A DNA stretch of 58,707 nt from Chloroflexota bacterium (GTDB lineage: Bacteria; Chloroflexota; Anaerolineae; UBA1429), in assembly GCA_012719135.1 (NCBI GenBank), contig JAAYAW010000023.1, positions 1-58,707 of the forward strand. The letters are read 5' to 3'. The notes beneath the pieces were generated by a model, which worked only from the letters and a program-made list of their open reading frames with translations, ran no database searches and was not told the origin of the DNA. Each line of letters starts with the position of its first letter. Position 1 is the stretch's first letter. Positions 9,175 to 46,092 of the stretch are shown in pieces. The position numbers and the translations under genes were made by a program.

Positions 9175-9190
9175 GTGCTACCTTCTTCCC

Positions 9191-15111: not shown

Positions 15112-15831
15112 TTACCCTCTTCGTCTGTCATCCTGACTCCCATTGCCCGGCTGGTTCGCCACCAGGGCACCATCCAGGTACCTCGCCAGATCCGTAATCC
15201 GATCGAGGATCAGATCCGGATGCGCCTCCAGCAGCCGCTCACGGCCAATAGCGGGGCTACAGACCGCAGCCGTAACGGCTCCGATCGCCTTCCCGGCCGC
15301 CACATCCATCGGGTGATCTCCACACACTAGCACTCTACCGTACACAGCATCGAGGCTCTCGAGCGCAGCGATCAGATGGCCGGGATCGGGCTTGACTCGT
15401 GCCACATCGTCTCGCGTCAGCACCACCTGGAGAGGTAGCGGCCAGCGCCCCAGTACGATCTCCACCGCGCTGCGGCAGTTCCGCGTCACGACGCCGATCT
15501 TGTATCCCGCATCAAGCAGCTCGCGCAGCATATCGGATACACCGGGATACGGCCGCGTTCGCGTAGCGGCTTCCAGTTCGATATCCATGATAACCCTGTC
15601 AGCGGTTATTGCCAAGTCCTCTGCCGCGCCCGCATCGCGCCCGCGAAGATCATCGGTGGCACGGTCCAGAATCTCCAGCGCCGGGAGGTGCCTCCAGGCC
15701 GCTATCTGCACGCCGGCCTGCTCACATGCCGCGAGCACGGCCCCGTTGAGCCGAGCAAAATCGATGCTGGGTTCGATCAACGTCCCGTCCAGGTCAAACA
15801 GCAGCGTATCCACGAGGTATCTCAACGTCAC
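15112..15831 (-). CDS. HAD-superfamily phosphatase (phosphoglycolate phosphatase-like)
   Basis: 239 residues with all four HAD motifs: FDLDGTL (nucleophile and general acid Asp), VVTRN (motif II Thr), RVKPDP (Lys) and VCGDHPMD (acidic motif IV). A helical cap lies between motifs I and II, as in the phosphoglycolate phosphatase group. The substrate is unknown. The GTG start follows the stop of the Agl23-like gene directly (TGA then GTG) with GGGAG five bases upstream, so the two are translationally coupled. It is the last gene of the membrane-glycosyltransferase run; it may dephosphorylate a sugar intermediate of that pathway, which is inference. Confidence 0.85.
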   Translation of the reverse strand: MTLRYLVDTLLFDLDGTLIEPSIDFARLNGAVLAACEQAGVQIAAWRHLPALEILDRATDDLRGRDAGAAEDLAITADRVIMDIELEAATRTRPYPGVSDMLRELLDAGYKIGVVTRNCRSAVEIVLGRWPLPLQVVLTRDDVARVKPDPGHLIAALESLDAVYGRVLVCGDHPMDVAAGKAIGAVTAAVCSPAIGRERLLEAHPDLILDRITDLARYLDGALVANQPGNGSQDDRRRG

Positions 15832-18800
15832 TCAATCTCCCACGGATTCTGCCCCTGGGGCTTCCGCGCCATCCTGCGGTACGACCGGGGCCGAGTACAC
15901 CAGTACCCGGCCGTTCTCCGAGTCGCCAAGATAGAGCTGCCCGTTCTGGTCGATCGCCAGTCCCGTCGGAAGATCCATGCCTTCGAGCCCGCTCCCGTAC
16001 TGTCCAAAGACCACGGCAATCTCACCATCAGAAAAGCCCAGAATCCGGTTGCTCTCGGGATCGGTGGCCCATACCATGCCCGATCCGTCCACTGCCAGAT
16101 AGGGTTTGTTCACAACGGACAGGCTGCTCCAAGCCTGCACACGCCATTCTCGCAGGTACGTCAGCTTGGCGTCAAAGACCTGAATGCGTCGGTTCCAGGT
16201 ATCCGCCACGTAGAGCTCCCCGGTCGCGCCAAAGGCAAGGCCCACCGGCTCCTCGAACTGCCCGGGACCGTCGCCGGACCCACCCACTGCCCCGAGAAGC
16301 ACGCCCTCAGGGCTGTACTTGAGCACGCGCTTGTTCCCTGTGTCGGAGACGTACAGATTCCCCTCCGTATCCAAGGCGAGCCCACGCGGGCCGTAAAAGC
16401 CCACCTCGACAGCCGGATCCTGCCCGGCTTCACCGAAAGTACCCCACTCGCGCAGATAGGTTCCCTGCGCATCAAACACCTGGATCCGGTGGTTCCAGGT
16501 GTCGGCCACGTACACCGTACCGTCCTGGGCGACCGCCACGCCCCAGGGTTCCTGAAAGTCGCCGGGGCCAGCCCCAAAGCCCCCCCACTGGCGCAGCGGC
16601 GCCCCCGAGGGAGAGAACACCTGTATGCGGTGGTTCTGGCTATCGGCTACGTAGATGTTGCCATCGGTATCCACGGCCACACCCTTTGGTGAAAGCACCT
16701 GCCCCTCAGCCGATCCAGCAGATCCAATGGATCGGACCGCACTATGCGAGATCCAGCGCTCCAGGTATGGGCTTGGCTCAACTGGCTCTAGCGCCGTCAG
16801 CGCATCGGTACCGCCGTCCCACATCCGTTGGAGCACATCCCGACGCACATACATGGCAAAACGGGACACGTACGGCCAGTCCGTCAGATCCCTATCCCAC
16901 TTGCGGTAGAACAGAATGTCCCACAGCACCCGCCTTCCCTCCGCAGTGGAGAGGTCCTGCCATAGGGAGGCCGGTGTCATCTGCATGTACCAGTCTTGAT
17001 AGGGCCACCAGATCATCCGGTACTCGCTTCGCACGTATCCCTCAGCGAGGAACTGGGCCGTTGCGTCTTCGTTCGCTGTGCCCACCAGCACCACGTCCGC
17101 ATCCAGCGGGCCCGAAGGAGCCTCTCCGAAATAGGTGGCGTGATCATAGTTGCGCAGGTACCAGACAAAGGGCCAACTCGTCTCATTGTCGTGCGCGATA
17201 GAGAGGTGCAGCCCGCCGGTCAGCCGGCGAGACATGCTCTCGATCTCTCGAGCAACGATCCCGGCATCAGGCGCCCCCTGAGCATACACGAGCAACTCAG
17301 CGGCGGAATCCCCGTTCACGAAGGACAGCCGCAGCGCAGACCGAACCGTGAGAGCCATGAGCACGGTCACAAGCGAAAGGCTCAACATCCGCCAGGAGTC
17401 GCTCCGGCGCAAGCGCGACAGCAACCAACCGATGGCCAGAGCCAGAGCAAGGCCCATCGCCAGCGTCACGATCCAGAGCATAGTATCCGACAGGGCCTGC
17501 GTTGACGTGTCCGTGCTCGGCGAGAGGGCAGCTAGCCGGGCCAACGTCCAGATCTCCAGAGGCACCAGCCCGAGAACCCAGAGTCCCCGTTGTCTGACCA
17601 CCGCGGGCCAGTCGGCGCGCAATAGCCATCCCAAAGCCCAGCCGCCCAGCAGGGTCATCGGCACGCTGATGTGCTGCAGCAGCCAGGGCATCTTCTCTCC
17701 TGCCCAGCTATAGATCACGAACGCCAGCAGAAACCAGTAGATGAGCAGAGGCACATAGGGCGCGGACGTGAGCTGAGGCTTGCCCTCTGCTCTGGCGACA
17801 GAGTCCCCCTTCAGGGCGTAGAGGGCTACCCCCGCAAGTGCCAGCAGAAAAGGCAGGAACTCGTACACCACCGTGAGCACGAGGTAATAGTGCCAGGGCT
17901 GCCCGCCCCGGGACTCGCCATGCTGCGAGAGCCAATATCCGAGCTGGCCAAGAACACCGGTGGCAATCCCACCGCCATTGGTAAACATCGTGGTAAAGAA
18001 CGGCAAGAACACCGCCCAGAAGATGCCCGCACAAGCCATCCACCTGCGGGCGCCCCACCACATGCCGATCCCCGCGCCGATGCCGAACATGACCAGAGCA
18101 ATGCCAAGCGAGAACAGCAGCGGTCCAGTGGTATAGTCCAGTGGATCGTGCCCGAGCAGAGTGATGACCACCGGGGACGCAAAGGGCAGGATCAGAGTCC
18201 CTATCGTGACCACCAGGTCGAACGCCGGCATCGCGATGAGCGTGCTCAGTCGCAGATCGCGGGTGGAAAGCCACTGGTACAGTAGGAAACCCACCAGAAA
18301 AGTACCCAGAATGGCATAGGTGATGAAGGTGGTCTCTTTCGCCGCAAAGCCGAGCGCCACAGCCGCCGCGGCCACATACAGATAGCGAGGCTTGCGCTCC
18401 TCTAGATACCGCAAGCACACGATCACCAGGATGAGGTTGAACAGGATGGCGAACTGATCGTGCCGGATGAACCGCGCACGGTGCATCAGGACAGGCGAAA
18501 CCGCCATGAGCGCCATAGCGGCGAAGGCCCCCTGCTTGCCCAACCATTTGCGCATGGCCAACGGGCTCAGAGCGATTGCGATCCCCGCGACAGCGGTCGC
18601 CAGACGTCCCGTCACATCGGAATCGCCGAACAGCAGATACACCAGCGCCGTCATGTGGTACAGAAACGGTCCATGGTAGACGGGGCTGTGGGTGTAGCCC
18701 TGACCGGTTGTCAGCTTCCAGGCCTCCCAAGCGTGGATGCTCTCGTCGTGACTGTAGGCACGCGACCCGAGATCCCACAGCCGCGTGAAGACGATCGCCG

Positions 18801-18921
18801 CCACCAGCAGGGCGCAGACCAGCGCCCAACGATCGATCCTCGCACCGGCGAGCACCGGCCGGTCCAGCCAACCCCGATGTGACTCGGTGCCGACAGGCGT
18901 GATCAGTTCGTTACTGCCCAT
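15832..18921 (-). CDS. Agl23-like membrane protein with C-terminal NHL propeller
   Basis: 1029 residues. The N-terminal two thirds is a GT-C-like membrane region with the invariant DE in SHDESIH (57-63) and HGP in VYHGP (81-85), the hallmarks of the family called flippase activity-associated protein Agl23 (TIGR03663), which resembles protein mannosyltransferases. From about residue 745 six NHL repeats (for example GNIYVADSQNHRIQVF) should form a beta-propeller, probably outside the cell. The start overlaps the end of the upstream GT39-like gene by 11 bases. Relatives usually occur beside DUF2298 genes, as here. Exact activity is unproven: sugar transfer to lipid-linked glycan, or a helper role. 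Confidence 0.85.
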   Translation of the reverse strand: MGSNELITPVGTESHRGWLDRPVLAGARIDRWALVCALLVAAIVFTRLWDLGSRAYSHDESIHAWEAWKLTTGQGYTHSPVYHGPFLYHMTALVYLLFGDSDVTGRLATAVAGIAIALSPLAMRKWLGKQGAFAAMALMAVSPVLMHRARFIRHDQFAILFNLILVIVCLRYLEERKPRYLYVAAAAVALGFAAKETTFITYAILGTFLVGFLLYQWLSTRDLRLSTLIAMPAFDLVVTIGTLILPFASPVVITLLGHDPLDYTTGPLLFSLGIALVMFGIGAGIGMWWGARRWMACAGIFWAVFLPFFTTMFTNGGGIATGVLGQLGYWLSQHGESRGGQPWHYYLVLTVVYEFLPFLLALAGVALYALKGDSVARAEGKPQLTSAPYVPLLIYWFLLAFVIYSWAGEKMPWLLQHISVPMTLLGGWALGWLLRADWPAVVRQRGLWVLGLVPLEIWTLARLAALSPSTDTSTQALSDTMLWIVTLAMGLALALAIGWLLSRLRRSDSWRMLSLSLVTVLMALTVRSALRLSFVNGDSAAELLVYAQGAPDAGIVAREIESMSRRLTGGLHLSIAHDNETSWPFVWYLRNYDHATYFGEAPSGPLDADVVLVGTANEDATAQFLAEGYVRSEYRMIWWPYQDWYMQMTPASLWQDLSTAEGRRVLWDILFYRKWDRDLTDWPYVSRFAMYVRRDVLQRMWDGGTDALTALEPVEPSPYLERWISHSAVRSIGSAGSAEGQVLSPKGVAVDTDGNIYVADSQNHRIQVFSPSGAPLRQWGGFGAGPGDFQEPWGVAVAQDGTVYVADTWNHRIQVFDAQGTYLREWGTFGEAGQDPAVEVGFYGPRGLALDTEGNLYVSDTGNKRVLKYSPEGVLLGAVGGSGDGPGQFEEPVGLAFGATGELYVADTWNRRIQVFDAKLTYLREWRVQAWSSLSVVNKPYLAVDGSGMVWATDPESNRILGFSDGEIAVVFGQYGSGLEGMDLPTGLAIDQNGQLYLGDSENGRVLVYSAPVVPQDGAEAPGAESVGD
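15886..16689 (-). repeat. Six NHL repeats within the Agl23-like protein
   Basis: Protein-level repeats of about 40-50 residues, each with a GVAVD-like strand, a YVAD-type turn and an N(H/R)RIQVF-like strand. The six together would close a six-bladed propeller. The fifth unit is the least regular (TDPESNRILGF). Confidence 0.85.
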
Positions 18922-20773
18922 CCGTCTCTCCCGTTTTCCTCATCACCCACAACCAAACAGTCTCACGTTCCACCGCCGGGCCCGCCTTTCGAAACAAGAG
19001 CCATTTGAGCGCCTCTCGCAGATCCCTCTGGCCCACAACGGGTCGCTCGCGAAGCGTGACGGACTGCCCCACATATCCGGCTGGCTCTGCCTGGCTCTCG
19101 CTCTGAGCACCGATCAGTATCGCCGCCTCGGACGGCTCTCCCACCCTTACGACGGGCTTGGCGTTCGGGTACTCGCGTAGCAGCCACGCGATCTGCGGTG
19201 ACAGCGCCTCCTCGTACAGGATATCCACGGCGCGCGGATCGCCGCTTTCGGCAAGCGACAGCCTCTCCAAGAGGGCCTCGACATCCCGGAGCGTGCCGGC
19301 GGTGGTGTGGCCCACCATGGGCTCCCATGGGTCTCTGGCACGATCGTAGGCCAGTGCCACCGTCCCCCGGATAGTGAGCAGCGTCGCCAGCACCAACACG
19401 AGGCTCATGACCACCAGTCCAGCCGCCTCTCGCCCTATCCAGATCCCGTAACCGATCAGCACAACCACCAGCAGGCCGCCTCCGAGCAGCGCCAGTCCCA
19501 GGTACACGTCCGTGCCGTGGTACAGGTACCCGCCCAGCTCGATCAGGGCAAACCACAGCAGGCACACGCTGGCACCCAAGGCGGCTAACTCCTTCGAGAC
19601 GAGGCGCATCACGCGACCCTCGATGCCGTACTGCGCACCCCGCCCCGCCAGAATGGCCAGTGGCAGGACGATCGTGACAATCCAGCGCGGCTCACGGTGC
19701 CCCGGGGCCAGACAGAGGATCAGGCTGAAAAGCAGCCAGGCAGCCAGGGCCTGATCAAGCGCGGAACCGGCCCTCCAGCCCCTGTACAAGCCGTAGAGCG
19801 CCAGCAGCAGTCCCAGTGGCTCGTACACCGCCAGCACCAGTGGAGCCTGATAGGGGAGCCAAGTGGATCTCTCCACGAGCGCCCCGATCCAGCCTCCCAG
19901 CATATCGACGGCGGTACCCATGCCGCCTGGGTTCGCCAGGCAGGCCGTGGCCCCCAGAGCCCAGGCGGCTCCGACCACCAGAACCAGTCTGCCCCGGTCA
20001 AGTTCGCGCCACCGCCGCGTAAGCTCCACCCGTGCGTCCCGGCAGGTTCGCCACCAAAGCACGCTCCCGGCCGCACAGAGTCCCAGAGCCAGGCTGAGGG
20101 CTTGTGGTCCGGCACACAGAGAAAGCCCGATGGACGCCATCCCGGCCGCGGCCATACGGTTGTCTCCGCGCTGCAGTGCACGATAGGCCAGCAAAACGCC
20201 TAGGGTGAACAACCCTACCGCGATCGCGGCGCCGTCAGCCGTCCGGCCCGCATAGACCCAGATCGGCGAGAGAGCCAGCGAACCGGCCACGAACAGGGCC
20301 GCCGTCCGCCCGAGCCAGCCCCGCGCGAGGTACGGGATGAGCACCAGCAGTGCGCCCACCATAGCGGTTGGCAGCCGCACGGCGAGCGCGTCCAGGGCAC
20401 CGGTGAGCGAGATCAGCTGGAGATCGAGCAGAAACGGCAGATACCCGCGCACCTCAAGTCCATCCCCCGATAGGGCCTGCACCGCGGCCAGCGCGGTGGG
20501 CGCCTCGTCCTGCAGCAGAGGCCAGCGTCCCAGGGAGAACACTCGGACAGCCAGCGCACCGAGTACCAGGGCAACGTACAACACCTGTTCTATGGTGATG
20601 CGCGGCCAGCCTGTGGCACAGGCCGTTGCCTCCCCTTCCCTCAAGGCTACGACCGTATCCGAGCCTCCGGCGCTTGTGGACGTCTCCTCGTCGGGAACGC
20701 TCACGCTCTGGCTCACATCAGCAGTATCCACAGGATGACACTCCGCCCTATCTGGCTCGGGCATAGATGACAT
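18911..20773 (-). CDS. GT39-like (protein mannosyltransferase family) membrane glycosyltransferase
   Basis: About 620 residues: a short Ser/Thr-rich cytoplasmic tail, roughly 10-12 membrane helices and a C-terminal soluble region. WPLLQDEAPTAL after the first helix holds the Asp-Glu pair typical of the catalytic loop in GT-C/PMT enzymes, which use polyprenyl-phosphate sugars on the outer face of the membrane. Several in-frame ATGs (20794, 20782, 20773, 20764) overlap the end of the DUF2298 gene; I chose 20773 without a decisive ribosome site. The stop overlaps the Agl23-like start by 11 bases. Confidence 0.78.
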   Translation of the reverse strand: MSSMPEPDRAECHPVDTADVSQSVSVPDEETSTSAGGSDTVVALREGEATACATGWPRITIEQVLYVALVLGALAVRVFSLGRWPLLQDEAPTALAAVQALSGDGLEVRGYLPFLLDLQLISLTGALDALAVRLPTAMVGALLVLIPYLARGWLGRTAALFVAGSLALSPIWVYAGRTADGAAIAVGLFTLGVLLAYRALQRGDNRMAAAGMASIGLSLCAGPQALSLALGLCAAGSVLWWRTCRDARVELTRRWRELDRGRLVLVVGAAWALGATACLANPGGMGTAVDMLGGWIGALVERSTWLPYQAPLVLAVYEPLGLLLALYGLYRGWRAGSALDQALAAWLLFSLILCLAPGHREPRWIVTIVLPLAILAGRGAQYGIEGRVMRLVSKELAALGASVCLLWFALIELGGYLYHGTDVYLGLALLGGGLLVVVLIGYGIWIGREAAGLVVMSLVLVLATLLTIRGTVALAYDRARDPWEPMVGHTTAGTLRDVEALLERLSLAESGDPRAVDILYEEALSPQIAWLLREYPNAKPVVRVGEPSEAAILIGAQSESQAEPAGYVGQSVTLRERPVVGQRDLREALKWLLFRKAGPAVERETVWLWVMRKTGETDGQ

Positions 20774-23108
20774 AGACTTCATTCTGATAGGCACGAACCA
20801 TCAGGCCATCCAGCTTCGCGAGCGTATCATCGCCGGCATCATAGGCTTCGCGCTCGTACGGCCCAACGAGCACATAGTCTACCCCGTAATCCCTCAGCAG
20901 TCGATCCGTCTCCGCCATGTCCACACCGCTGTAGATCGCTCGCAGCACCTGCTCCCGCTCAGCAGGGAGATCACCAGAGCCGCGCCATTGCCGCTCATGG
21001 CCTGCCCAGCCCAGCAGGCTCTGCAGACCCGTGTGTGCGGACACCCAGTTCTCAACGGTGTAGCTGCCCCCGGAGCCCTCCACGATCACGGCATCAGGGG
21101 CAGCGTCGGCGAGAAGCCACGCGATGGCCGCGTATTCGGCCGGCCTCTGCCGCGCCACATAGGCGGTTCCGTTCAACGTCGCCTCGCCCCGAAACAGACC
21201 CGCCTTTGTGGCCGTCGCTGCCGCCGTGTAGCTCAGGCCACCGATCACGAGCATGCCCGAGAGAGCCAGCCAGAGCGCTACGGCCGCCTGCCAGGGCCGT
21301 CTCAGCTCGCCTGCCTTCCGAACCAGTCGGTAGACGCCATAGCTCCCGCACAGGCTGAGCAGGACCCATGCCTGATAGTAGAACTTGAACACCGTGTTCA
21401 TTCGCGAGTCAAAGACGTCACGCAGATATACGACCTCCACGGCACAAAGGAGGCCCATCGCTACCATGATCATCAACAAGACCATCAGCGTGGGCGCATC
21501 AGGCCCCCCTGCTGACTCTCGCACTCCGACCACGGTCCCCCACAACAGGAGCCCCCCGCTCACCAGGAGAAACAGAAGGCACAGCGCCGCCGTCCACCAG
21601 CCGGCGACCAGGGAGGCCACCAGCGCCAGCCCGAAGGCGGCGGCCCAGATCCATGCCAGTGATGGAGGAGCGACTGACTTGAGGGCGGCCCTCATCTCTG
21701 CAGCAATCACGGTCAGCGTTGCTGGCAGCAGCGAAAACTGGATCCCGAACATCAGCAGGAACTGTTGTGGCGCCGTTTTCGTTTCCGGAGAGACCAGGCC
21801 GATGCCCCCTGCCTGAGACCGCAGGCTCAGGAAAAAGGGGAAATATGCCAGCACTCCACTGGCGCCAACCGCCAGCATCAGGATCGCCGTGTCGCGCAGC
21901 CAGCCCTGTTTCCCGATGTCCACCCGGTATCGCCAGACCGCCAGAGCCGCGCCAAAGAGGAGCAGGTATATGGGATAGTCCCAGGTGTTCAGAAAGGCCA
22001 GCGCACCCAGGATCAGACCCCACCACGCCACCTCTTGCGGCGTGCCTGGCCAGGAGCGAGCAACAGACGCCATCCAGCGACGCAGGCCTGTACCCACCGC
22101 AGGGGCCTCACCGCACACCCTTTCCCGCATGAGTATGTTCAGCGCCAGAGCGATCGCCAGGAGCACAAAGGGAAGCGCAAGAACGTGAGGGTGGTTGTCC
22201 CCCAGTAGGAAACTAAAGAAGGGGAACTCGGAGATCACCTCCTGGTCCGCTCCGGTGGGCCCACGGTCATGGATCACGCGCGAGGCACGCCACCACCACC
22301 AGTTGTCCGTGGGATACCAGTGCGGGCTCGGCTCCGATGCCTGCAGGTTGCGTACATCCAGCCATGACCAGAATGCCCCGCTGCCCCACCCTCTAGCGCG
22401 GATCAACTCCAGTACGCCGACCAGGTTCCCCATCACGGCGACGAGGATGCCTCCCAGCAGCCCGTACCGGGCGGCACGCTGCCCCGCCGCAGTCACGAGG
22501 TTGTAGACGACGCCAAACGCCCCGCTTATGGTCAGAGCGAACAGGCTGATACCCACAAGGTTGAACGTGACGCTGCTCGGCAGCGCCGACAGCCGTGTCA
22601 GCATCGCGGCCATCAGATACCCAAAGTAGTAGTAGCTGATCGAGTATCCGGCGAGCCAGGGATCGTGCGGAGGAAAGGTCTCGCTCTGCAGAATGCCGTT
22701 CAGAAAGGCGAACTCCATCGGCTTCTCTGTGGCCACGATGTCCGGATTGAAGGCCCGGAAGATCCCAAAGAGCAGCAACGCGGCAAAGAACAGGGCCGAT
22801 TCCAGCGCCACGACGCGCCTCAGCCCGGACAGATGACGCAACAGCGCGGTCCGATCCCTCCAGGCGACGGCCACCGAAATCAGCGCCGCCAGGCAGAGAG
22901 CCAGCACCGCGGCCGCCGTGGTATTGCGCAGCCAGCCGGTGGTCGCCAGCAGCCAGAGCAGGTAACCAGTCAGTAACAGACCGATAGGCCGGCGGAAGCA
23001 GACGCCGCGCTCGGGAAGATGGCGCAACAGCGTCATGCTCAGCGGCAAACCCACCAGCCCAAAGAGCTCGAGCAACAGCCCCCAGCGCAGCAGAACGCCT
23101 ATGACCAT
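20748..23108 (-). CDS. DUF2298 (Chlor_Arch_YYY) integral membrane protein, single-domain form
   Basis: 786 residues, almost all hydrophobic, essentially one DUF2298 domain of the usual 700-900 residue size. The name-giving motif is YYYFG (159-163), preceded by TEKPMEFAFLNGIL and TFPPHDPWLAGY; RMNTVFKFYYQAW follows at about 569. The C-terminal soluble part (DYVLVGPYEREAY, LAKLDGLMVRAY) matches the ends of both domains in the neighbouring giant protein. Family function is unknown; GT-C-like glycosyltransferase activity is a reasonable guess from topology and context. The ATG lies inside the last codons of the giant gene (10-base overlap). Confidence 0.88.
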   Translation of the reverse strand: MVIGVLLRWGLLLELFGLVGLPLSMTLLRHLPERGVCFRRPIGLLLTGYLLWLLATTGWLRNTTAAAVLALCLAALISVAVAWRDRTALLRHLSGLRRVVALESALFFAALLLFGIFRAFNPDIVATEKPMEFAFLNGILQSETFPPHDPWLAGYSISYYYFGYLMAAMLTRLSALPSSVTFNLVGISLFALTISGAFGVVYNLVTAAGQRAARYGLLGGILVAVMGNLVGVLELIRARGWGSGAFWSWLDVRNLQASEPSPHWYPTDNWWWWRASRVIHDRGPTGADQEVISEFPFFSFLLGDNHPHVLALPFVLLAIALALNILMRERVCGEAPAVGTGLRRWMASVARSWPGTPQEVAWWGLILGALAFLNTWDYPIYLLLFGAALAVWRYRVDIGKQGWLRDTAILMLAVGASGVLAYFPFFLSLRSQAGGIGLVSPETKTAPQQFLLMFGIQFSLLPATLTVIAAEMRAALKSVAPPSLAWIWAAAFGLALVASLVAGWWTAALCLLFLLVSGGLLLWGTVVGVRESAGGPDAPTLMVLLMIMVAMGLLCAVEVVYLRDVFDSRMNTVFKFYYQAWVLLSLCGSYGVYRLVRKAGELRRPWQAAVALWLALSGMLVIGGLSYTAAATATKAGLFRGEATLNGTAYVARQRPAEYAAIAWLLADAAPDAVIVEGSGGSYTVENWVSAHTGLQSLLGWAGHERQWRGSGDLPAEREQVLRAIYSGVDMAETDRLLRDYGVDYVLVGPYEREAYDAGDDTLAKLDGLMVRAYQNEVYVIYARAR

Positions 23109-29100: not shown

Positions 29101-30160
29101 ATTGGTGGCTCGGCGGGTAGTCGATCTCGCCGGACATCAGCCGTTGAATGTAACGCATGTCATCCAGCCAGCGCTGGTTGAGTTGGAGTCCAAAGAGGCC
29201 TGGGCCCTGGAAGGCCTGCGGCTGGGCCAGGCGAAAGGCCCAAAAGGCGATGAACAGGATCGCAATCATCAGCACGGCAGCCCGTAACCAGCGCACAACC
29301 ACACCATCAAGCCGCCGGACGGAGAGAGGGGCATCATCGTCGTCCAGGGCAAGGGTAAAGCGCCAGCGCCCCATCCGACCTGTACGCGTCACGCGGCCGT
29401 CGGGCTGGTTCCCGCCCTGGGATCCTCGCCCGAACACCCGCACAAGAAGTGCCAGGCCAATGATCAGCCCGAACGTAGCCACCGAGATCTTGGCGGAAAT
29501 CGCCAGGCCAAAGGCGAGCCCAAGGCCGAGCACACTGCCGAGACTCTCCCCCTGTGATACGCGCACCGCCGCGTACAGGGCCGTCGTCACCAGGAACGTG
29601 GTGGCGGAGTCCACGGTGAAATAGTGTGATTGCTGGATGTTGAGCACGGTCATCGCCAACAGCAAAGCGCCCAACAGGCCGACTCGCGTATCGTACAGCC
29701 GCCGGCCCAGGAAGAAGACGACCACCACCGCCAAAAGATCGAGGATCGCGGACATGGCCCGGCCGGCGAGATATACGCCCCAGTAGCCCGTGTGGCCCGT
29801 CGCCTGTCCGATGAACTTGGCCAGCGTCACGGGCAAAAGCCCGTAGACGTACGAGCCCTGCCCCCGGTTGTACGGGTTGAGCGGGTTTACCGAGGAATCT
29901 AGATACTCGCCCAGTGACTCCGGCCAGGCCAGAGCGTTCTCGACCATCGTCAGGAATCGCTCATCCGGATGTAGATGCTGCCCTTCATCCCAATCCAGGC
30001 CCACCAGCCGGAGATACCCGCCCAGAAGGAGTATGCCGGCCATGGCCACGAGCACCAGCAGGCGATGTTCCCTCCGGAGCACGCTTCGATCGCCCTCGGA
30101 ATTGGAGGGTCGCGCCGCGAGCGCGACCGGTTTTCGACGCGGCACTGCCAGCGACCTCAC
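23099..30160 (-). CDS. Giant fusion: GT39-like domain plus two DUF2298 domains
   Basis: 2353 residues in three membrane modules. Residues 1 to about 680 resemble a GT39/PMT enzyme, with HPDER (64-68) after the first helix, like the GT39 protein at 34273-36207. Residues about 690-1500 are DUF2298 copy 1 (YYYYG 852-856, MNTVFKF 1271-1277). Residues about 1570-2345 are copy 2 (YYYYG 1729-1733, MNTVFKF 2110-2116). Each copy ends with a soluble segment containing YVGxLERAxY. A polar linker (about 1507-1570) separates the copies. The two-copy class of DUF2298 proteins with an extra N-terminal region is known; no TPR tail is present here. GTG start overlaps the previous stop by 4 bases. Probably a membrane glycan enzyme; activity unproven. 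Confidence 0.87.
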   Translation of the reverse strand: MRSLAVPRRKPVALAARPSNSEGDRSVLRREHRLLVLVAMAGILLLGGYLRLVGLDWDEGQHLHPDERFLTMVENALAWPESLGEYLDSSVNPLNPYNRGQGSYVYGLLPVTLAKFIGQATGHTGYWGVYLAGRAMSAILDLLAVVVVFFLGRRLYDTRVGLLGALLLAMTVLNIQQSHYFTVDSATTFLVTTALYAAVRVSQGESLGSVLGLGLAFGLAISAKISVATFGLIIGLALLVRVFGRGSQGGNQPDGRVTRTGRMGRWRFTLALDDDDAPLSVRRLDGVVVRWLRAAVLMIAILFIAFWAFRLAQPQAFQGPGLFGLQLNQRWLDDMRYIQRLMSGEIDYPPSHQWADRAPVTYMLENMVKWGLGLPLGLAVCFAWGLMGWQLLRHGQLRPLLPWSWMTLTFLYQSVQFVKTVRYLLPIYPTMALMAAAGLVWLWDRARSSARPRATALAGVICGTVVLGTALWAFSFASIYTRPVTRIEASRWIYANIPPGSALTFEVWDDALPLNLDGRLADQTYTMVRTDPYWEDIPEKRTALVEWLDQADYIILSSNRLYGSIPRLPSRYPMTTRYYEALFSGELGYEMLASFTSRPQLFGIEIVDDDADESFTVYDHPRVTVFRKTAAYSTEAVQALFADYDLERIVRIMPKQVTGAPDGLMLRADELRSQRQGGTWSDLFDRKSLVNRVPVLVWYLAFLFVAVLAFPLAFPALRQMPDGGYLLAKAVGLLLVGYVPWMLVSLGVATFSRGTLWLSLMGLSAVSALAAWAQRRDLVGLLRKRWRLLVVSEGLFLIAFVGMILIRHGNPDLWHGAMGGEKPMDLAYLNAIIKSTTFPPYDPWFSGGHINYYYYGWLPIAVVIKLTGILPTVGYNLALATLFALVFAGSASVAAYLMPRCRDDADGAWLPSCLRWGLVAGVLVAVAGNLGEIELLWQGLAEIGRRGGSALLGEVGQVLRGLLALLQGHEALAFRPEWWYWNASRIMSHGEINEFPFFSFLYGDLHAHVVAMPLFVLGVGVAANLASGGSGPPLGVRRTLAIQIGLLALVLGASWCANTWDLPTGLAIAAGALVIRARDRIRVRSRQTIVALVSQLAAMGALAWLLYFPFHARYGAAYSSVGLWSGERSSLGDLVLIYLPFLFVLITYLLQAVRPPIVRSPWWRSLRLGLARQPRFGRGLTLRRALVRYPTLFYGLGWLVCLLMVGAVALLIGAGEVTSALLFILLALGVLALFAGKAGSRERFLRLMVVGGLALSLGLEWVVLDGDIGRMNTVFKFSLQVWILWGISTAVALRSMLAGARESGTGVTRRAWWRVVLAALLAGTLSYPALAAPAKVRDRISASSPTGLDGMAFMDSATYQDNGQQLNLGHDAEAIRWLQEHVLGSPVIVEANTPLYRWGGRVSVYTGLPSVVGWDWHQKQQRAALSSTVVDWRLQDLATIYTSLSVDETVELLRRYQVGLIYVGELERAYYAPEALAKFDAMLGDTLERIYSKGPVTIYRVLGSGARLTSAQPAGPGWVEAARDWLARHWIPSRVRADGDSSDARLLLESPVEDVPSVNSRGWNTLAEGSPFVSAALWWLVLVLIGLIVWPLILPVFGGWSDGGYLVAKGLGLVLVGYVAWLAMSLRWLRNTPLTAWGAALMVGAVALAVYVRRRRRFSSRFSAAAMRGEAVFALSYGTFVLIRMLNPDLWQPWYGGEKMMEIAMLNAISRSAYLPPYDPYFAGGVLNYYYYGLYLVSLLCKMVGLSPEIGFNLAVPTFFGLTVSHAFAFGREIIGTGRLRIWQGAGSAALVAVAGNLSGARQIVQQLTVLACPEGAGSALEGAVCAVDGAGRWISGGGGALAFDYWYAATRIIPNTINEFPFFSYLFADLHPHMMALPLGLLVLCLCGALIQAARPSLALRACAVLWLALTIGTLSVTNTWDLPVFWLLSAATLVYLGYRSGGVRGAVLGGGVSPVLALAALLAFAPFYSRFRAQNLGLALLTPGERTAVAPFLEIWGAVLWLTIGLLRWGARTSGRRRGRRGSGRGRWLSRALGIALSISFAAGVAMGQIWPLLACLLAASLAMCILQRNRPGRWILWLCLAAGFGLLLGIEWIYVADFLRGSDWRRMNTVFKFSIQAWVLLAAVGGAMLPVVWQSARPWTSSGMAWRTGAVVLLAGAFVYPLAAVPTRVNERFPSGSPSGLTLDGTAYMEQAVYSLPESDNPVEMRYDRDALRWIWANVSVLPVLAEAPVGYYREGGLRMSSYSGLPTLVGAHQYEQRPAEQVAPQLADAELLFTTEDPEVALALMQRRHVRLVYVGPLERALYPEAALAKFEALEDTGVLKCLYENDGATLYLYADGVPGDRGSADGWS

Positions 30161-32136
30161 TCGGCCTTCCTCTCGCCATAGAACGCCCAGAACGCCAGGC
30201 TTCCATCTTCCCAGCGATGCCCAAGCACGATCGACCGATCATAGTCCCCCTCCAGCAGGGAGAGGGCCTCCAGGCCATCGGGATGTACGATCACCAGCGC
30301 GCGCGGAACGCTCCGATCCAGGGGCCCCTGCCCTGGCTCCAGTACCGTGACCTCCTGAACGCCATCGGGCACGGCGTGCACCAGCTGAGCCCGAACCGCG
30401 TTCCCATCATACCAGAACGGCGCTACGAGGATGTATGCCTGCCCGTCGCTGTAGGCATCGATCACATGAGCCATCTCCAGTGAGATGGACTGGTTCTGGT
30501 AGGGTTGGGCGGACACATATCGCCCAAAGTACAGTGGATAGACCGCCACGGCTTCTGCCAGCAGTCCTCCCACAATCGCCACCACAGAGAGAGGGCGCAC
30601 CACGGCATTCAGCCTGCCGGATCTACCGGGTTGCGGACTTCCCCCGGTCAGCCAGCAGCTGGCCGCCCGCACTCCCACGGCGGCCAGCATCATGGCCATC
30701 GGCAGGACGCCTATGCTTCGCACAGCGCTGGGAACCTCATCGGGGAAGGCCAGTGAAAGCGTCGAAGGCAGCAGCAACCCGATCAAGAACAGCCACAAGA
30801 GCCAGCCGTGGTTCAAGGGGCGCCTCAGGGCACAGTAGGCGGCTCCCAGCGCAAAAAACAACGCGGTGGCGAAACCGAGTTGCCTGTAGCCCGGCACGTT
30901 GGTGACGTACACCGTATCTCCACGGTACTGGAACATCGCCGCTGCCCTGGCGCCATTCCCCAGCCAGGTCGCCAGGGGCCGCGCGGGCAAGGGGGCCTCT
31001 ATCGAGGTCGCTCGGGTGGCCGCTCGATACAGGTACCGCGCAGGGTCCTCCAACGCATAGCACACCAGCGGCAGCGCGACGATTAAGATCACCAGGGCGC
31101 ACAGGAGCACCATGCTCCAGGAGATGCGGACCTGGAGTTGCCTTCGGAACGCCGCTGCAATCAGCAACGCGCCCATGAGCAGTAGAGGGACCACCATCCC
31201 GGCGTTGTAGGTCTGCAGGCATAGGGCAGCAAAACCTGCGCTGAGGGCATACCAGCGCGGCTGTCCCGTCATGAGCCCGCGAACAGCAAAGAGTAAGCAT
31301 AGCGACGCCAGCGGGGGCAGCAGCACGGCACGATAGCCCATCCGGCTGAGGATGATGTGCCAGTGGCTGATCGACAACAGTACCGCGGCTGCCGCACCGG
31401 CCCACCGATCCCACATCTCCTTGCCGAGCCAGTACATGACGGGGATGGACGCCACGCCGATCAGTGCCGCGGCGATCTTGATGCTCACATGGCTGAGCCC
31501 GGCCACCGAGGCGACGGCGGCGGCGAGGTAAAAGAACAGTCCCTCTCGCCCGGGGTGTGACTCGAAAAAGATCGGGAACTCACCGTCCAGGATCTGCGCG
31601 ATGTTCCCCTGGATAAGCGGCAGGTCACAACCCATCTCCAACGGGATGCTGTGAATCCGGTGTAGCCGTAGAAAGGCTCCCACGATGACCGCGAGCCCCA
31701 CAACAACGACGGGCCACGAAAACGTAACGGATAGCGGCAACCGGCGCGCTACGGTCCGGTCCCGCTGAGGCCAGACGGCGATCGCGAGGGCGATGATCGC
31801 GCCCAGCCACGGCATCACGCCGGCCAGGGTGAATCTGTTGGCGGCCAGGCCGGGCACAGCAAGCAGGGCCAGCCCCGCGGCGATGCCCACAGTGGGCCAG
31901 TGAATGCACATCTGCGGGACGGCACTGGGGCCGGACAGGCACCGTTTCCGACCAGGGGCGAGTACCGCGAACAGGATACCGCCAGCAGCCAGCAGTGCGC
32001 CGCCAAGGGCGGGCAGCGTACCGCGATCGAGCAACAACTGCCCCAGGGCTCCTGCCAACAGCACAAATCCCAGTGACCACGTTCCGCCTGGTCTCGATTT
32101 CAGTGTGTTCGTACTGGGTGATGCGGCGCTACCCAC
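30157..32136 (-). CDS. GT39-like membrane protein (phospholipid carrier-dependent glycosyltransferase family)
   Basis: 659 residues with about 12 helices and a C-terminal soluble domain, in the PMT/ArnT-like fold. The loop after the third or fourth helix reads PLEMGCDLPLIQGNI where relatives have a catalytic Asp-Glu, so the expected DE pair is not intact; SHPGREGLFFY follows. This may be a variant catalytic loop or a non-catalytic partner. The N-terminus carries extra helices before that loop. Its stop overlaps the GTG of the giant gene by 4 bases and it starts 57 bases after the methyltransferase. Confidence 0.75.
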   Translation of the reverse strand: MGSAASPSTNTLKSRPGGTWSLGFVLLAGALGQLLLDRGTLPALGGALLAAGGILFAVLAPGRKRCLSGPSAVPQMCIHWPTVGIAAGLALLAVPGLAANRFTLAGVMPWLGAIIALAIAVWPQRDRTVARRLPLSVTFSWPVVVVGLAVIVGAFLRLHRIHSIPLEMGCDLPLIQGNIAQILDGEFPIFFESHPGREGLFFYLAAAVASVAGLSHVSIKIAAALIGVASIPVMYWLGKEMWDRWAGAAAAVLLSISHWHIILSRMGYRAVLLPPLASLCLLFAVRGLMTGQPRWYALSAGFAALCLQTYNAGMVVPLLLMGALLIAAAFRRQLQVRISWSMVLLCALVILIVALPLVCYALEDPARYLYRAATRATSIEAPLPARPLATWLGNGARAAAMFQYRGDTVYVTNVPGYRQLGFATALFFALGAAYCALRRPLNHGWLLWLFLIGLLLPSTLSLAFPDEVPSAVRSIGVLPMAMMLAAVGVRAASCWLTGGSPQPGRSGRLNAVVRPLSVVAIVGGLLAEAVAVYPLYFGRYVSAQPYQNQSISLEMAHVIDAYSDGQAYILVAPFWYDGNAVRAQLVHAVPDGVQEVTVLEPGQGPLDRSVPRALVIVHPDGLEALSLLEGDYDRSIVLGHRWEDGSLAFWAFYGERKAE

Positions 32137-32193
32137 AGTGGTGAACAGAGCTCCTGTCTTGCTTGGATCTGTGGTGAAGCCGTCGTCAGGCGA

Positions 32194-33078
32194 TCATCCC
32201 TTTGTCGCCAGCACGGCCAGGTTCACAAACGTACGCTTCCGAGCCAGCCGTTCCGCGTCCTCGTTCAGCCGGTCGATCCGGTGGAACAGCGCCAGGGCCC
32301 AGTTGAATGGATTCATGGGGCTGTTCCGGTTGGCCTCACCGTCGAAGCGGTGGACAGACCTGGATACCGCCTTGGGCAGGAGATTCCTTTCGATCAATCC
32401 CTTGCCGATTGTGTACACGATGGTCTGAGTCCCAGGGAAGCAGTAGTGCGTGAGTTGCTCCACCGGGCCGAGCGCGTAGCCCGCGGACCGCAGCACCTGC
32501 CGCAGCGCCTCAGCCGTGTAGAGTCGCTCATGGTTGGCCCAGATGCCTGCAAACGGGCCCCTTCGGATCGGGCGCCGCCGGATCGCCATAGACAGACGGT
32601 TGATGGGATCATACCACCACGGATAGTCGCGGGAAGGAACCGTCACCGCCAGCTTGCCGCCGGGCTTGAGGACGCGCCACACCTCGGCCAGGGCCGTAGC
32701 CTCATCGCGCAGGTGCTCAAGCACCTCGGACATGATCACGCTGTCCACGCTTTCGTCCGCCAACGGTATCCTGGATACATCCGCAAAGAGCACCAGCGCC
32801 TGGCCCGCGACGTGCGCGCGCGCGAATGCCAACGCGCGGCGATCCACGTCGATCCCGAGGACGCGCGTCTCCGGGTACAGCCGCGTGATCGCGCGTGGAT
32901 AAAAGCCCATGCCCGTGCCGCAATCCAAAATCGTCTGGCCCGGCTGCGGATCCAGGTAGCGCAGCATTGTTCGTACGCGGCGCCGGTAGGCCACATCGGA
33001 CTCGTTGCGCAGCAGCGCGCCCAGAGTCTTCTCGCGCGCTTTCTCTTCGCTCTGTGGTCCAGTCTCCACTTCCGACAT
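32194..33078 (-). CDS. Class I SAM-dependent methyltransferase
   Basis: About 294 residues. Motif I LDCGTGMG (51-58), the acidic GIDVD strand, SEVLEHL and LKPGGKLAVTVPS are the standard SAM-binding and post-motif segments of the UbiE/Methyltransf_11 type. The C-terminal part has hydrophobic and basic stretches that could associate with membrane. The target is unknown; the setting suggests a glycan, lipid carrier or sugar O-methyl group, which is inference. Start ATG 33078 has GAGAGG four bases upstream; ATG 33108 is in frame. It lies between the flippase-like gene and a GT39-like gene. Confidence 0.85.
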   Translation of the reverse strand: MSEVETGPQSEEKAREKTLGALLRNESDVAYRRRVRTMLRYLDPQPGQTILDCGTGMGFYPRAITRLYPETRVLGIDVDRRALAFARAHVAGQALVLFADVSRIPLADESVDSVIMSEVLEHLRDEATALAEVWRVLKPGGKLAVTVPSRDYPWWYDPINRLSMAIRRRPIRRGPFAGIWANHERLYTAEALRQVLRSAGYALGPVEQLTHYCFPGTQTIVYTIGKGLIERNLLPKAVSRSVHRFDGEANRNSPMNPFNWALALFHRIDRLNEDAERLARKRTFVNLAVLATKG

Positions 33079-33168
33079 GTACCCTCTCAGCCAAGTTCCA
33101 AACGCCATAGACGTCAGGAAAGTGCTAAAGCCTGCCGATCTCGGCTCGCCATAGTGATCCAGAGGCGC

Positions 33169-34158
33169 TCACGTGCGGCTGGATACCACATCCCTGACGT
33201 GCTGGTAAGAGATCCCCTGCGCCAGCATGCCCACCAAGCCCAGCAATATAAGGGTGAGATTGGTAAACAGGTGCAGGCCCAGCATGTAACCGAAAGCAAC
33301 ACCCTGATCCACACCGTACACCGCCAGGCCCTGAACCCCGGACCACTCAAACACGCCCATGGCGCCCGGCGATGAAGGCACCATCATCGAGAATCCGGTC
33401 GCACAGAGAACGAGCGCAGCCGCCGAGAACGGAAGGTATTGCAGGCGGAAGACAAAGAGCAGGATATAGTTCAGCGTTGCATATCCAAGCCAAACCGCGG
33501 CGGTCGCCGCCACTACGCCCAGCAATCTCCGCCACTCGAGCAACACGCCAAAGCCGCCGACCAACTCGGCGAGCGCGCTGCGAACCGCCGGCCTGCCCAG
33601 CACAGGCACGCGCCCCACCCAGCGCCACACCCAGTCGATAGCCCGCGGGCCAATGCGCGCCATGATGAGCAACGCCGCGATCCCGGCAACCGCGAGAGCG
33701 CCAAACATCAGCCCTCCCCGGCGCACCCATTCCGGGATGGCGATCACGGGCAGCAACAGCACCAGTATGACGATCACGGATAGCACATCGAGCAGGCGCT
33801 CCACCAGCAGCGAAGAAGCTGCCTGACCGTACCCGCCGGTGAGCTTTCTTCCCGCCAGATAGCCGCGGATGAACTCGCCTGCCTTGGCCGGGAGGATGTT
33901 GTTGAAAAAGTACCCGATGTTCACCAGGTGATACAGCGAAGAGAGGCTTACCCCCGGGTCCTGTCGGGTCAGCAGGTGCCAGCGGAGTGCCCGGATCATG
34001 CTGATGGCCGCGATGAGCACAAAGGCGAGCCCGAGGTATCCATACGATGCCTGCCCGAACAGGGCAAAAAGCTCCGGCCAGTCGATATCGCGCATCGCGA
34101 GATACAGAAACGCCAAGCTCAAGATGATGCCGATGGCGAGACGTGCTCTTTTTTGCAC
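33169..34158 (-). CDS. Flippase-like membrane protein (TIGR00374 / UPF0104, LPG synthase TM type)
   Basis: 329 residues, about eight helices. RALRWHLLTR, the FFNNILPAKAGEFIRGYL stretch and LLVERLLDV are the signatures of the lysylphosphatidylglycerol synthase transmembrane/flippase-like family. The family occurs often beside polyprenyl-linked glycan genes and is thought to move or modify lipids; substrate unproven. It begins with GTG after AAAGGGA and a spacer that may contain its own promoter (34200-34208). No aminoacyl-transferase domain is attached. Confidence 0.82.
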   Translation of the reverse strand: MQKRARLAIGIILSLAFLYLAMRDIDWPELFALFGQASYGYLGLAFVLIAAISMIRALRWHLLTRQDPGVSLSSLYHLVNIGYFFNNILPAKAGEFIRGYLAGRKLTGGYGQAASSLLVERLLDVLSVIVILVLLLPVIAIPEWVRRGGLMFGALAVAGIAALLIMARIGPRAIDWVWRWVGRVPVLGRPAVRSALAELVGGFGVLLEWRRLLGVVAATAAVWLGYATLNYILLFVFRLQYLPFSAAALVLCATGFSMMVPSSPGAMGVFEWSGVQGLAVYGVDQGVAFGYMLGLHLFTNLTLILLGLVGMLAQGISYQHVRDVVSSRT

Positions 34159-34199
34159 TATATTCCCTTTGTCAGTAGCTTCTATCCCGTTACGAGCCT

Positions 34200-34208
34200 A
34201 CTATAGCA
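34200..34208 (-). promoter_or_regulatory. Putative extended -10 promoter upstream of the flippase-like gene
   Basis: TGCTATAGT on the minus strand is an extended -10 (TGN plus 5 of 6 consensus) about 40 bases before the GTG start, in the 114-base gap after the GT39 gene. No good -35 is present at 16-18 bases. It could give the downstream genes transcription independent of lepA. Confidence 0.4.
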
Positions 34209-34272
34209 TCGTATGTATCCCTGGGCCAGACGCAACAGCCGACCTCGCCCGGTCCTTACGCAAGATCGCGTG

Positions 34273-36207
34273 CTAGCCAGCTTCCTCCAGTAGCGCCTCC
34301 AACCGCCCTTCAGGGAGATCTGAGGCGCGTCGGAAGATCATGGGCAGGGGGTGATCATACACGGTGAAGCTCTCATCAACGTATCCCAATACGAGATCGC
34401 TCGCCTTCCGCCCCTCGTCCCGCAACAACGCGGGGACCTCCAGACCGGATCTGGTAAACGGGTCATCGACCAAACGAAACGGCCCGAGTGAAGGGTACAC
34501 CTGCGCAAAGTAGGCCAGCTCAAAGCCCAGATCCTCAGCAAGCAGCCTCTGATAGTAGCGCGTGGTGGTCGGATAGCGCTCGGGCAGCTGCGTGACACTG
34601 CCGTACAGGCGGTTACTGGCGATCACGACATAGTCCGCGGACCGGAGCGCCTCCACCAGAGCCGAACGCTTTTCTGAGGTGTCGGGATCATAGGCGGGAA
34701 ACGTCAGAATGCGGTAATCCTCATAGCAGCGATGCTCACCCATTCCCTGCAGAATGGGAAGAGGCTGGTCCCAGTGCTCGATCAGCAACGTGCTGCCAGC
34801 CGGGACCTGCTCACAGATCCACTCGGTGGCCTGCTCCCAGGGGTGCACGGTAGCATAGATGTGCAAGAAGCTCAGCGTATACAGGGCGGAGGCCGCGACA
34901 ACCACCACGGCCTGCCCCCGCCCGGCGGCACGGGCGGCACGCCCCCCGTGGTGCACCAACCTATCGAGCAACCGTGCTCCCCACAGGCACAGAAGGGGCG
35001 TAAGAGGCAGCATGTAGCGCAGGAACTTGGCGTGGAAAGCACCGATGATCCCAAAGTAGATGACGAACCAAACGACGGGGATGACCTCCGGGAAGAGAGA
35101 GGACCATTTGCGCTTGAGTGCGGCCCGGATGAGCCCCCAGATCATCGCGACGGCTCCGGAGAAGCCGACAGCACCCAATGGCAGACCAAGCGACCACCAG
35201 ATCGTCTGTGCGATCTGGTAGATGTAGGGAACCGTCCGGGCGTATTGTCTTGTGTAGGGGAGATCCAGACTGCCGCTCACCATCATGCTCTCGGTGGCTA
35301 GATCCCCCAGGAAGGTGCCAAGGTCGATCAGGGCATAGGGCTCCAGCAAGACGAACGTGATGGCCGCAATCCACCCGGCAGCGATAATGCCGCGCACCGC
35401 CTCCGCACCCAGATGCCCACCTGAGCGCTCGGCCTGTGCGCCGTTCTCACGGCGGCCGAGGGCCAGCGCGCCGATCCATGCGACGGCCAGCGGAGCCATC
35501 AGCGCGGCCGCGCTGATCTTGATCGAACAGGCCAGCCCCAGCGCCATGCCCGCCCCCAGCATTCTCCCCAGCGTGGGCTTGTCCACCAGGCGCACGCTCA
35601 GGACAAGCACCAGCATGATCGCACAGGTCAGCAGGGTATCCACGGCGTAAAAGTGCGAGAGCTGAACGTGGAGCACAGCAAAGGTCAGAAAGGTCGCCGC
35701 CAGGAAAGCGGTCCAGCGCCCGTAGAGGCGCCTGCCCAGGGCATAGGCCAGCGCAATGGTGCCCACATCGGCCAGAGCGGAGATGACGCGGCCGATGACA
35801 TAAGAGGATCGCAGATTCGACATCGCCGGCCAGACCACTGAAGAGGCGTTGGCCATAATGCGCAGGAGGTAAAGAGGAAACGATCCGTAGGAGAAGAAAC
35901 CCGGGTTCCAGCTGCTGGCGGGCGAGAACAGGCTGTCCCAGTCTGGCGGCCAGCTGAGCTCGAGGTCCGCCGTCACAAAGACCACCTGCCGCTCGTCGGG
36001 ATGGAACAGGTAGCCGTGATCCCACGTATTACCGAAGAGGCGGACGCCGAGGGCGACAATCAGCAGCGCCGCGACGGCTGCCCGCTCGCACCAGACGCGC
36101 CTTGCTGAGTGGGCCTCTCCCGACCATCGATCCCGCCGCAGCCCACACGCCGCGGGGTCGGCCATGCGAGACGATCGCCTGTCCTGATCCGCAGCCGAGC
36201 ACGACAT
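34273..36207 (-). CDS. GT39-like membrane glycosyltransferase
   Basis: 644 residues: an Arg-rich N-tail, about 10-12 helices and a C-terminal soluble part. HPDERQ after the first helix parallels HPDER of the giant fusion, and further shared stretches (GRVISALADVG versus GRAMSAILDLL; QLSHFYAVDTLL versus QQSHYFTVDSAT) show that this protein and the giant's N-terminal module are paralogues. Family members transfer sugars from polyprenyl phosphate. It starts 4 bases after lepA; ATG 36165 is an alternative. The end of the protein repeats the DESFTVYDHPxxxxFR motif also found in the giant. Confidence 0.85.
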   Translation of the reverse strand: MSCSAADQDRRSSRMADPAACGLRRDRWSGEAHSARRVWCERAAVAALLIVALGVRLFGNTWDHGYLFHPDERQVVFVTADLELSWPPDWDSLFSPASSWNPGFFSYGSFPLYLLRIMANASSVVWPAMSNLRSSYVIGRVISALADVGTIALAYALGRRLYGRWTAFLAATFLTFAVLHVQLSHFYAVDTLLTCAIMLVLVLSVRLVDKPTLGRMLGAGMALGLACSIKISAAALMAPLAVAWIGALALGRRENGAQAERSGGHLGAEAVRGIIAAGWIAAITFVLLEPYALIDLGTFLGDLATESMMVSGSLDLPYTRQYARTVPYIYQIAQTIWWSLGLPLGAVGFSGAVAMIWGLIRAALKRKWSSLFPEVIPVVWFVIYFGIIGAFHAKFLRYMLPLTPLLCLWGARLLDRLVHHGGRAARAAGRGQAVVVVAASALYTLSFLHIYATVHPWEQATEWICEQVPAGSTLLIEHWDQPLPILQGMGEHRCYEDYRILTFPAYDPDTSEKRSALVEALRSADYVVIASNRLYGSVTQLPERYPTTTRYYQRLLAEDLGFELAYFAQVYPSLGPFRLVDDPFTRSGLEVPALLRDEGRKASDLVLGYVDESFTVYDHPLPMIFRRASDLPEGRLEALLEEAG

Positions 36208-40118: not shown

Positions 40119-40148
40119 TAGCCCACTTCAGTGGAGGAGACCAGTCGC

Positions 40149-42830: not shown

Positions 42831-42852
42831 AGGGACTGCCTACTAACCGCTC

Positions 42853-43230
42853 TCAGGAGAACTCGAGGAGCGCCATCTCCGCGTTATCACCTTTACGCGG
42901 CTCCAGATCCAGCACACGCGTGTACCCTCCGGCACGTTCCGCGTACCTCGGCGCGATCTCGTCAAACAGCTTCGAGACCAGCCGGCGGTCGCCAAGAACC
43001 ACGGCGGCCTGGCGCCGTTCATGCACGTCCTGAGCGTCCGCTGCGCGCTTGCTCATGCCGCGCTTGGCCAGTGAAATAAGCTTATCGGCGTCCCCACGCA
43101 CCGCCAACGCCTTGGCCTTGGTGGTGCGAATACGCTCATGCTCCACGAGCGCCCGAACCAGATTGCGCCTGAGCGCCTGCCCGTGAGCGGCTGTTCGGCT
43201 CAGAGGGCGGCCGGCAACACGATGTCTCAT
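42853..43230 (-). CDS. rplQ: 50S ribosomal protein L17
   Basis: 125 residues with the MRHRVAGRPLSRTAAHGQAL start and LVRALVEHERIRTT typical of L17. Follows rpoA by 63 bases, its usual place. Confidence 0.97.
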   Translation of the reverse strand: MRHRVAGRPLSRTAAHGQALRRNLVRALVEHERIRTTKAKALAVRGDADKLISLAKRGMSKRAADAQDVHERRQAAVVLGDRRLVSKLFDEIAPRYAERAGGYTRVLDLEPRKGDNAEMALLEFS

Positions 43231-43293
43231 AACGTCATACCCCTCGTTAATATCACGTCCGTGCCGCTTCCGAAAGGACGGCGGCGCCGGCCT

Positions 43294-44244: not shown

Positions 44245-44341
44245 GGGAAACCCTCCTTACCTGCGCGGCGCCCGCCTCGCCGCGATTCAGAACGCGCGGG
44301 CGCCAGTCAACGTACGTTTGAACCCTGGTGAGAGGATCCCT

Positions 44342-45505: not shown

Positions 45506-45532
45506 ATATCGTTTACCCCCTGAGCCCTGCTG

Positions 45533-46090: not shown

Positions 46091-46092
46091 CC

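Follow-up and report, generated by a model that had tools for sequence, protein, structure and literature searches.

Little is known of the cell surface of Chloroflexota, an abundant group of bacteria, and a 21-kb run of genes for membrane enzymes in one of their genomes raises the question of what such an assembly would build, and which of its parts would carry out the chemistry. The sequence studied comes from Chloroflexota bacterium (GCA_012719135.1, contig JAAYAW010000023.1) and covers 58,707 nucleotides, a stretch that we call the window; the run lies at positions 15112-36207. The genome has a size of 2.64 Mb and a completeness of 99%, and its relatives are Chloroflexota MAGs.

A dense run of GT-C-type genes

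A sequence-only reading of the window had described nine consecutive minus-strand genes with the domains given below, and open reading frames, Pfam and NCBIfam searches found all nine at the claimed place, on the claimed strand and in the claimed order. The curated cut-offs are 300.25 bits for TIGR03662, 27.8 for DUF2298 (PF10060), 126.25 for TIGR03663, 26.1 for PMT_2 (PF13231), 33.4 for PF03706 and 43.2 for TIGR00374; scores in the following list lie above these values unless marked as below.

15112-15831, minus strand: HAD-family phosphatase (Pfam HAD_2, 5.8e-22; phosphoglycolate phosphatase/PpaX-like in NCBIfam, below equivalog cut-offs)
15832-18921, minus strand: Agl23-type GT-C protein (TIGR03663 268.4 bits, PMT_2 54.5 bits) with a six-bladed NHL propeller
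18911-20794, minus strand: GTb, a divergent GT-C protein and weak TIGR03663/PMT_2 relative (TIGR03663 59.2 bits, PMT_2 21.8 bits, both below); order conserved in relatives
20748-23108, minus strand: stand-alone DUF2298/TIGR03662 protein, a predicted GT-C glycosyltransferase by its AlphaFold2 model and PDB fold matches (TIGR03662 538.1 bits, DUF2298 386.6 bits)
23099-30160, minus strand: giant of 2353 aa, a GT39-like GT-C module (aa 1 to ~640) followed by two DUF2298 modules (~691-1520 and ~1591-2353) (PMT_2 44 bits, DUF2298 721.9 bits, TIGR03662 1038 bits)
25601-28090, minus strand: Y2, the giant's first DUF2298 module; invariant residues complete; groups with other GT39-fused copies
23102-25390, minus strand: Y3, the giant's second DUF2298 module; invariant residues complete; placed beside second modules of giants encoded in distant families
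30157-32136, minus strand: GTc, a GT39-like GT-C protein (PMT_2 43.8 bits; TIGR03663 35.5 bits, below) with D171 and E198
32194-33108, minus strand: class I SAM-dependent methyltransferase (Methyltransf_11, 9.7e-22), with a counterpart at the equivalent place in several relatives
33169-34158, minus strand: PF03706/TIGR00374 flippase-like membrane protein (156.4 and 80.1 bits), the sole one in the genome
34273-36207, minus strand: GTd, a GT39-like GT-C protein and paralogue of the giant's first module (PMT_2 49.9 bits; TIGR03663 18.7 bits, below)
36212-38020, minus strand: LepA (EF-4; TIGR01393 926 bits), 4 bp upstream of GTd

The description of three separate GT39-like proteins holds for GTc and GTd, which pass PMT_2, whereas GTb is a weak match. 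None of the PMT_2-type modules in the window passes a named PMT equivalog in NCBIfam.

The near-continuous overlapping or touching of genes that had been noted from 32136 down to 15112 is real, with junctions of -4, -10, -47, -11 and 0 bp, the -47 bp value depending on the start codon chosen for GTb. Upstream of 32136 the genes are separated by 57, 60 and 114 bp, and the last of them from LepA by 4 bp. A start of the run at 36207 could not be upheld, however: genes for LepA, an AI-2E-type transporter and an FtsJ-like protein lie ahead of it in the same orientation. LepA adjoins the cluster in several relatives as well, and is a frequent neighbour that stands outside the pathway. The HAD gene lies beside the Agl23 gene in close relatives only and is probably peripheral to the system; it adjoins the gene for a CCA-adding enzyme in a relative too. 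Simple promoter and terminator scans of the run yielded no more sites than shuffled sequence.

Around the run, a UbiA-family prenyltransferase gene lies at 40131-41018 on the plus strand, for which a role in prenyl-phosphate or quinone metabolism is possible. SecF-like and SecD-like genes lie downstream on the run's own strand (8239-10549), and a ribosomal-protein region on the minus strand (42063-56354) includes genes for SecY, adenylate kinase, RpoA, S5, L2 and a tRNA pseudouridine synthase.

DUF2298 is predicted to adopt a GT-C fold

The GT-C character that had been proposed for the DUF2298 domains is supported by a confident AlphaFold2 model (pLDDT 94.8, pTM 0.95), whose top matches in the PDB are all GT-C proteins. 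A Foldseek search with this model returned 12 matches at E<=0.001, every one of them a GT-C enzyme or a complex containing one, among them Dpy19 (8e-7), AglB (4e-6), OST and AftA; altogether, the solved GT-C enzymes matched in fold are Dpy19, AglB/STT3, AftA, PMT, ArnT and ALG9/12. In VIA-align, ranks 1-44 are occupied by GT-C entries or their C-terminal domains (STT3 at Z 16.2; AftA at Z 14.6, 4.7 Å over 494 residues), after which scores drop to Z 6.7 and unrelated folds. The extracytoplasmic C-terminal domain taken alone aligns with that of AglB at Z 10.5 and 2.6 Å. DUF2298 is thus predicted, on the basis of its model, to combine a GT-C membrane module with an extracytoplasmic domain, and the Pfam GT-C clan may already include it.

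At the sequence level, neither a single DUF2298 sequence nor a profile of the family retrieved a relative from the PDB, and hhalign gave no match between DUF2298 and Agl23. Against Chloroflexota STT3 profiles, the one alignment obtained was a weak one of the C-terminal domains (17% probability, E 0.0014), and the N-terminal halves, which hold the active site, gave no profile-profile alignment. There is no Pfam STT3 match (PF02516) in the DUF2298 proteins or anywhere in the genome, and no WWDYG motif was found in the window's proteins.

Invariant residues suggest a candidate active site

Across 116 sequences, 18 alignment columns are invariant: E128, M131, P146, Y159, Y160, G163, N228, R277, E294, P296, D304, H306, H308, R569, N571, F574, K575 and W581. 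E128 sits just after the helix at 97-119, in the first extracytoplasmic loop (EL1), and, judging by conservation and position, may be the EL1 catalytic carboxylate of DUF2298. Such a carboxylate is used by OST, PMT and Dpy19 and is common to GT-C enzymes (PMC10154233). A D304-x-H306-P-H308 motif directly precedes a membrane helix, and D304 and H306, possibly with H308, could form a putative metal site comparable to that of AglB, whose metal ligands include D161 and H163 (PMC7226087); the Chloroflexota STT3 sequence LGFTDHHV can be set against the DUF2298 consensus LLGDLHPHV. E128 and D304-x-H306 are placed like the OST metal site (EL1 D, DxD/DxH, EL5 E), but profile alignment gives no match to the STT3 residues, and the metal site is for this reason proposed as a lead, by motif and position. 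R569, N571 and K575 may hold phosphate.

All three DUF2298 modules of the window retain the invariant polar residues, and none therefore bears the marks of an inactivated catalytic site. The motif set is also retained by a homologue from beyond Chloroflexota and archaea, encoded on the Pseudobutyrivibrio (Lachnospiraceae) plasmid pNP95 (L153:14554-16809) among genes for WecB, a DegT-type aminotransferase, a GT2 protein, a glucosyltransferase and an O-antigen ligase. A haloarchaeal fragment has R-L-N-T-V-F-K.

The Agl23-type protein and the remaining GT-C modules

The run holds eight modules, each with its own conserved acidic motif: three are DUF2298 and five are of GT39/Agl23 type, one of the latter being weakly matched. 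The Agl23-type protein has D59, E60, H63, H83, R106 and R150 invariant in 30 relatives; GTb keeps E97 in 42 of 43, and GTc keeps D171 in 22 and E198 in 20 of 23. The giant's first module and GTd retain H-P-D-E-R. A PDB sequence search with the membrane half of the Agl23-type protein found no relative, and its fold search list was filled by propeller matches, which confirm the NHL propeller by fold. This propeller is ~35-38% identical to those of animal TRIM71/Thin, and is absent from some relatives (L013, L019, L027 and L045).

In NCBI, TIGR03663 bears the name 'flippase activity-associated protein Agl23'. Haloarcula hispanica Agl23 (HhAgl23) is reported to suppress a yeast rft1 deletion and to translocate M5GN2-PP-Dol and an M3GN2-linked lipid in liposomes (PMC11182771), and the role of Rft1, which serves as the benchmark of that flipping assay, is disputed (PMC11365447). 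This naming implies that HhAgl23 belongs to TIGR03663; if so, it too is related to GT39 with conserved acidic residues. We favour Agl23-type proteins as transferases, and the report of flipping would be compatible with the kinship to GT39 if such a transferase also scrambled lipid in vitro.

The giant is one of several triple fusions

The giant's N-terminal module and GTd share 32% identity over 644 aligned positions. The GT39-DUF2298-DUF2298 architecture recurs in the genome L009 and in the distant families L111-L113, and members G304 and G306 of the same family also encode giants with a pair of DUF2298 modules; these cases rule out a recent oddity or an assembly artefact. In a midpoint-rooted tree, stand-alone and GT39-fused DUF2298 form two clades with supports of 0.968 and 0.998. 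Y3 groups with the second modules of the L111-L113 giants and some single fusions, at 0.937 and 0.834, the lower supports in the tree being modest. This placement of Y3 makes it likely, from the tree, that the triple fusion is old and that losses followed.

The cluster recurs across the phylum

Five of the genome's 14 PMT_2 places fall within the 21 kb of the run (P ~6e-8, assuming random scatter and ignoring tandem duplication), together with all three of its DUF2298 domains and its only PF03706 gene. DUF2298 and TIGR03663, counted as present at E<1e-40 and E<1e-25, respectively, are both found in 188 of 301 Chloroflexota genomes; one is found alone in 5 and the other alone in 3, and neither in 105. 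The pair is missing from some Chloroflexota families. The resulting phi of 0.94, with the genes adjacent, substantiates the co-occurrence in Chloroflexi that the sequence-only reading had cited and refutes an unrelated distribution.

With the stand-alone DUF2298 protein as the query, 80 Chloroflexota loci were retrieved, in which all 178 neighbouring family matches have the same orientation. Of the 61 loci with room for a further gene, 51 have a matching family member in the next position; 39 of 46 have an upstream DUF2298 or GT39-DUF2298 gene; and 41 of 44 have, within 7 kb, a match to the Agl23 profile, which may also catch GTb-like genes. As the loci are akin, these neighbourhood counts are not independent. 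Given the five of 14 PMT_2 places, the sole PF03706 gene and an order that recurs throughout the phylum, the clustering exceeds chance. Among 14 control genomes, TIGR03662 was detected only in Haloferax and Methanosarcina, and TIGR03663 in four, two of them above the cut-off, with both families detected in Haloferax volcanii; the presence of DUF2298 in archaea was thus seen in two control genomes and one plasmid fragment.

Some loci consist of DUF2298, Agl23-type and PF03706 genes in tandem and nothing more (L115, L116, L122 and L123; L013, L019 and L027). The genomes of L115, L116, L122 and L123 measure 1.3-1.7 Mb, and the cluster of L127 is nearly as small. This shrinkage to a trio in small genomes suggests that these three genes form the core of the system, with the GT39-like modules as an elaboration. 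The system is phylum-wide and little described, its component families being already known; in literature searched under the family names, DUF2298 in Chloroflexi appears only in one passing mention of a neighbourhood.

A proposed role in surface-glycan assembly

We propose, with a probability of roughly two in three, that the run encodes the assembly arm of a surface-glycan system in Chloroflexota, at work on the extracytoplasmic side. GT2 synthases encoded elsewhere in the genome would make polyprenyl-phosphate sugars in the cytoplasm; the GT2 proteins found there are nearest to dolichyl- or undecaprenyl-phosphate hexose synthases, and all score below the equivalog cut-offs. The PF03706 protein is a plausible flippase that would bring these donors to the outer leaflet, where each GT-C module could transfer one sugar, probably in a distinct linkage, to a growing surface glycan or glycoprotein. 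With three active sites per chain, the giant might perform consecutive transfers without release, while the NHL propeller may bind or scaffold the acceptor outside and the methyltransferase may modify a sugar. The number of sugars transferred is a guess from the module count, and some modules may instead have regulatory roles or work as parts of complexes.

Sequential transfer from polyprenyl-phosphate sugars is favoured by the polysaccharide cluster on pNP95, the GT2 synthase-like genes and the lack of STT3 in the genome, and from the first two of these the surface-glycan role gains support. That the genes jointly build or transfer a lipid-linked glycan, as first proposed from the sequence, is something that we still infer, and it weighs against our reading that a common fold alone does not show chemistry and that the genes are missing from some families of the phylum. 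We advance more tentatively a bolder combination, in which DUF2298 is a new metal-dependent GT-C family of Chloroflexota, archaea and some other bacteria, the giant is an assembly line with three active sites for a surface glycan, and the Agl23-type proteins are transferases of the pathway; if it is true, the reported flippase activity of Agl23 would be read differently.

Three other explanations deserve weighing. Capsule and exopolysaccharide loci often contain several glycosyltransferases, and the 32% identity between GTd and the giant's first module would suit an ordinary locus of this kind, its GT-C genes gathered by duplication and its machinery in no way special. We regard this as improbable: capsule loci usually differ between close relatives, whereas the order here spans the phylum; the stand-alone and GT39-fused DUF2298 clades are both old; and the run contains no sugar-nucleotide, GT-A/GT-B, polymerase or export genes. 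A protein glycosylation machine, with DUF2298 replacing oligosaccharyltransferase and modifying an S-layer or other surface protein, would account for the prominence of Dpy19 and AglB/STT3 among the top folds, for the AglB-like C-terminal domain and for a genome that lacks STT3. Clear STT3 occurs in 7 of the 301 Chloroflexota genomes, all of <=2.2 Mb (L085-L091, several with WWDYG), and six of these seven have no DUF2298. Yet the fold is matched well also by AftA and ArnT, enzymes that modify glycans and lipid A, DUF2298 has no STT3 score in Pfam, and the Lachnospiraceae gene sits among polysaccharide genes, so that we consider this machine somewhat unlikely.

The Agl23-type protein, and perhaps DUF2298 also, could instead be a flippase for lipid-linked sugars, making the run a transport and assembly complex, as the rft1 suppression and liposome translocation by HhAgl23 (PMC11182771) and the NCBI name of TIGR03663 would have it. 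It is by that name that HhAgl23 is linked to TIGR03663, and the Rft1 benchmark of the assay is itself in dispute (PMC11365447). The Agl23-type protein moreover scores as a GT39 PMT_2 protein and keeps the invariant D59-E60, as a GT-C transferase would, and a separate flippase-like PF03706 gene adjoins it even in the minimal trio. We therefore think a flippase role unlikely and retain the assembly arm of a surface-glycan system as the preferred reading.

Comparison with known systems

The window's DUF2298 modules lie far above the cut-offs of TIGR03662 (Chlor_Arch_YYY)/DUF2298, a family whose name already cites Chloroflexi and archaea. What differs is that this known family has no assigned function, and we offer for it a predicted GT-C fold and an active-site hypothesis, and describe a triple fusion. 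DUF2298, present in about two-thirds of the sampled Chloroflexota genomes and in archaea, thereby gains a testable structural identity, and a minimal three-gene core is named. With the GT39 protein O-mannosyltransferases, four of the five modules outside DUF2298 share a score above the PMT_2 cut-off, and none is a named PMT equivalog.

The enzymes AftA, AftB, AftD and EmbA-C are of GT-C type and use decaprenyl-phosphate arabinose serially to build the mycobacterial wall polysaccharide. AftA is a wide, low-rmsd structural match to DUF2298; these are different families, and the likeness of the group is one of working principle only. With STT3, AglB and PglB (GT66), DUF2298 has in common the predicted GT-C fold, a C-terminal globular domain and a D-x-H motif before a membrane helix comparable to D161/H163 of AglB (PMC7226087), whereas the window's proteins differ in having no STT3 Pfam match, no WWDYG and N-terminal halves without profile homology. 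Finally, the window's Agl23-type protein, at 268 bits against a cut-off of 126, resembles H. hispanica Agl23, reported to be a flippase of hexose-P-Dol and lipid-linked oligosaccharide (PMC11182771), and differs from it by the NHL propeller, the adjoining flippase-like gene and the GT39-type acidic residues. The locus bears on whether Agl23 acts as a flippase or as a transferase in the dispute over lipid-linked oligosaccharide flippases.
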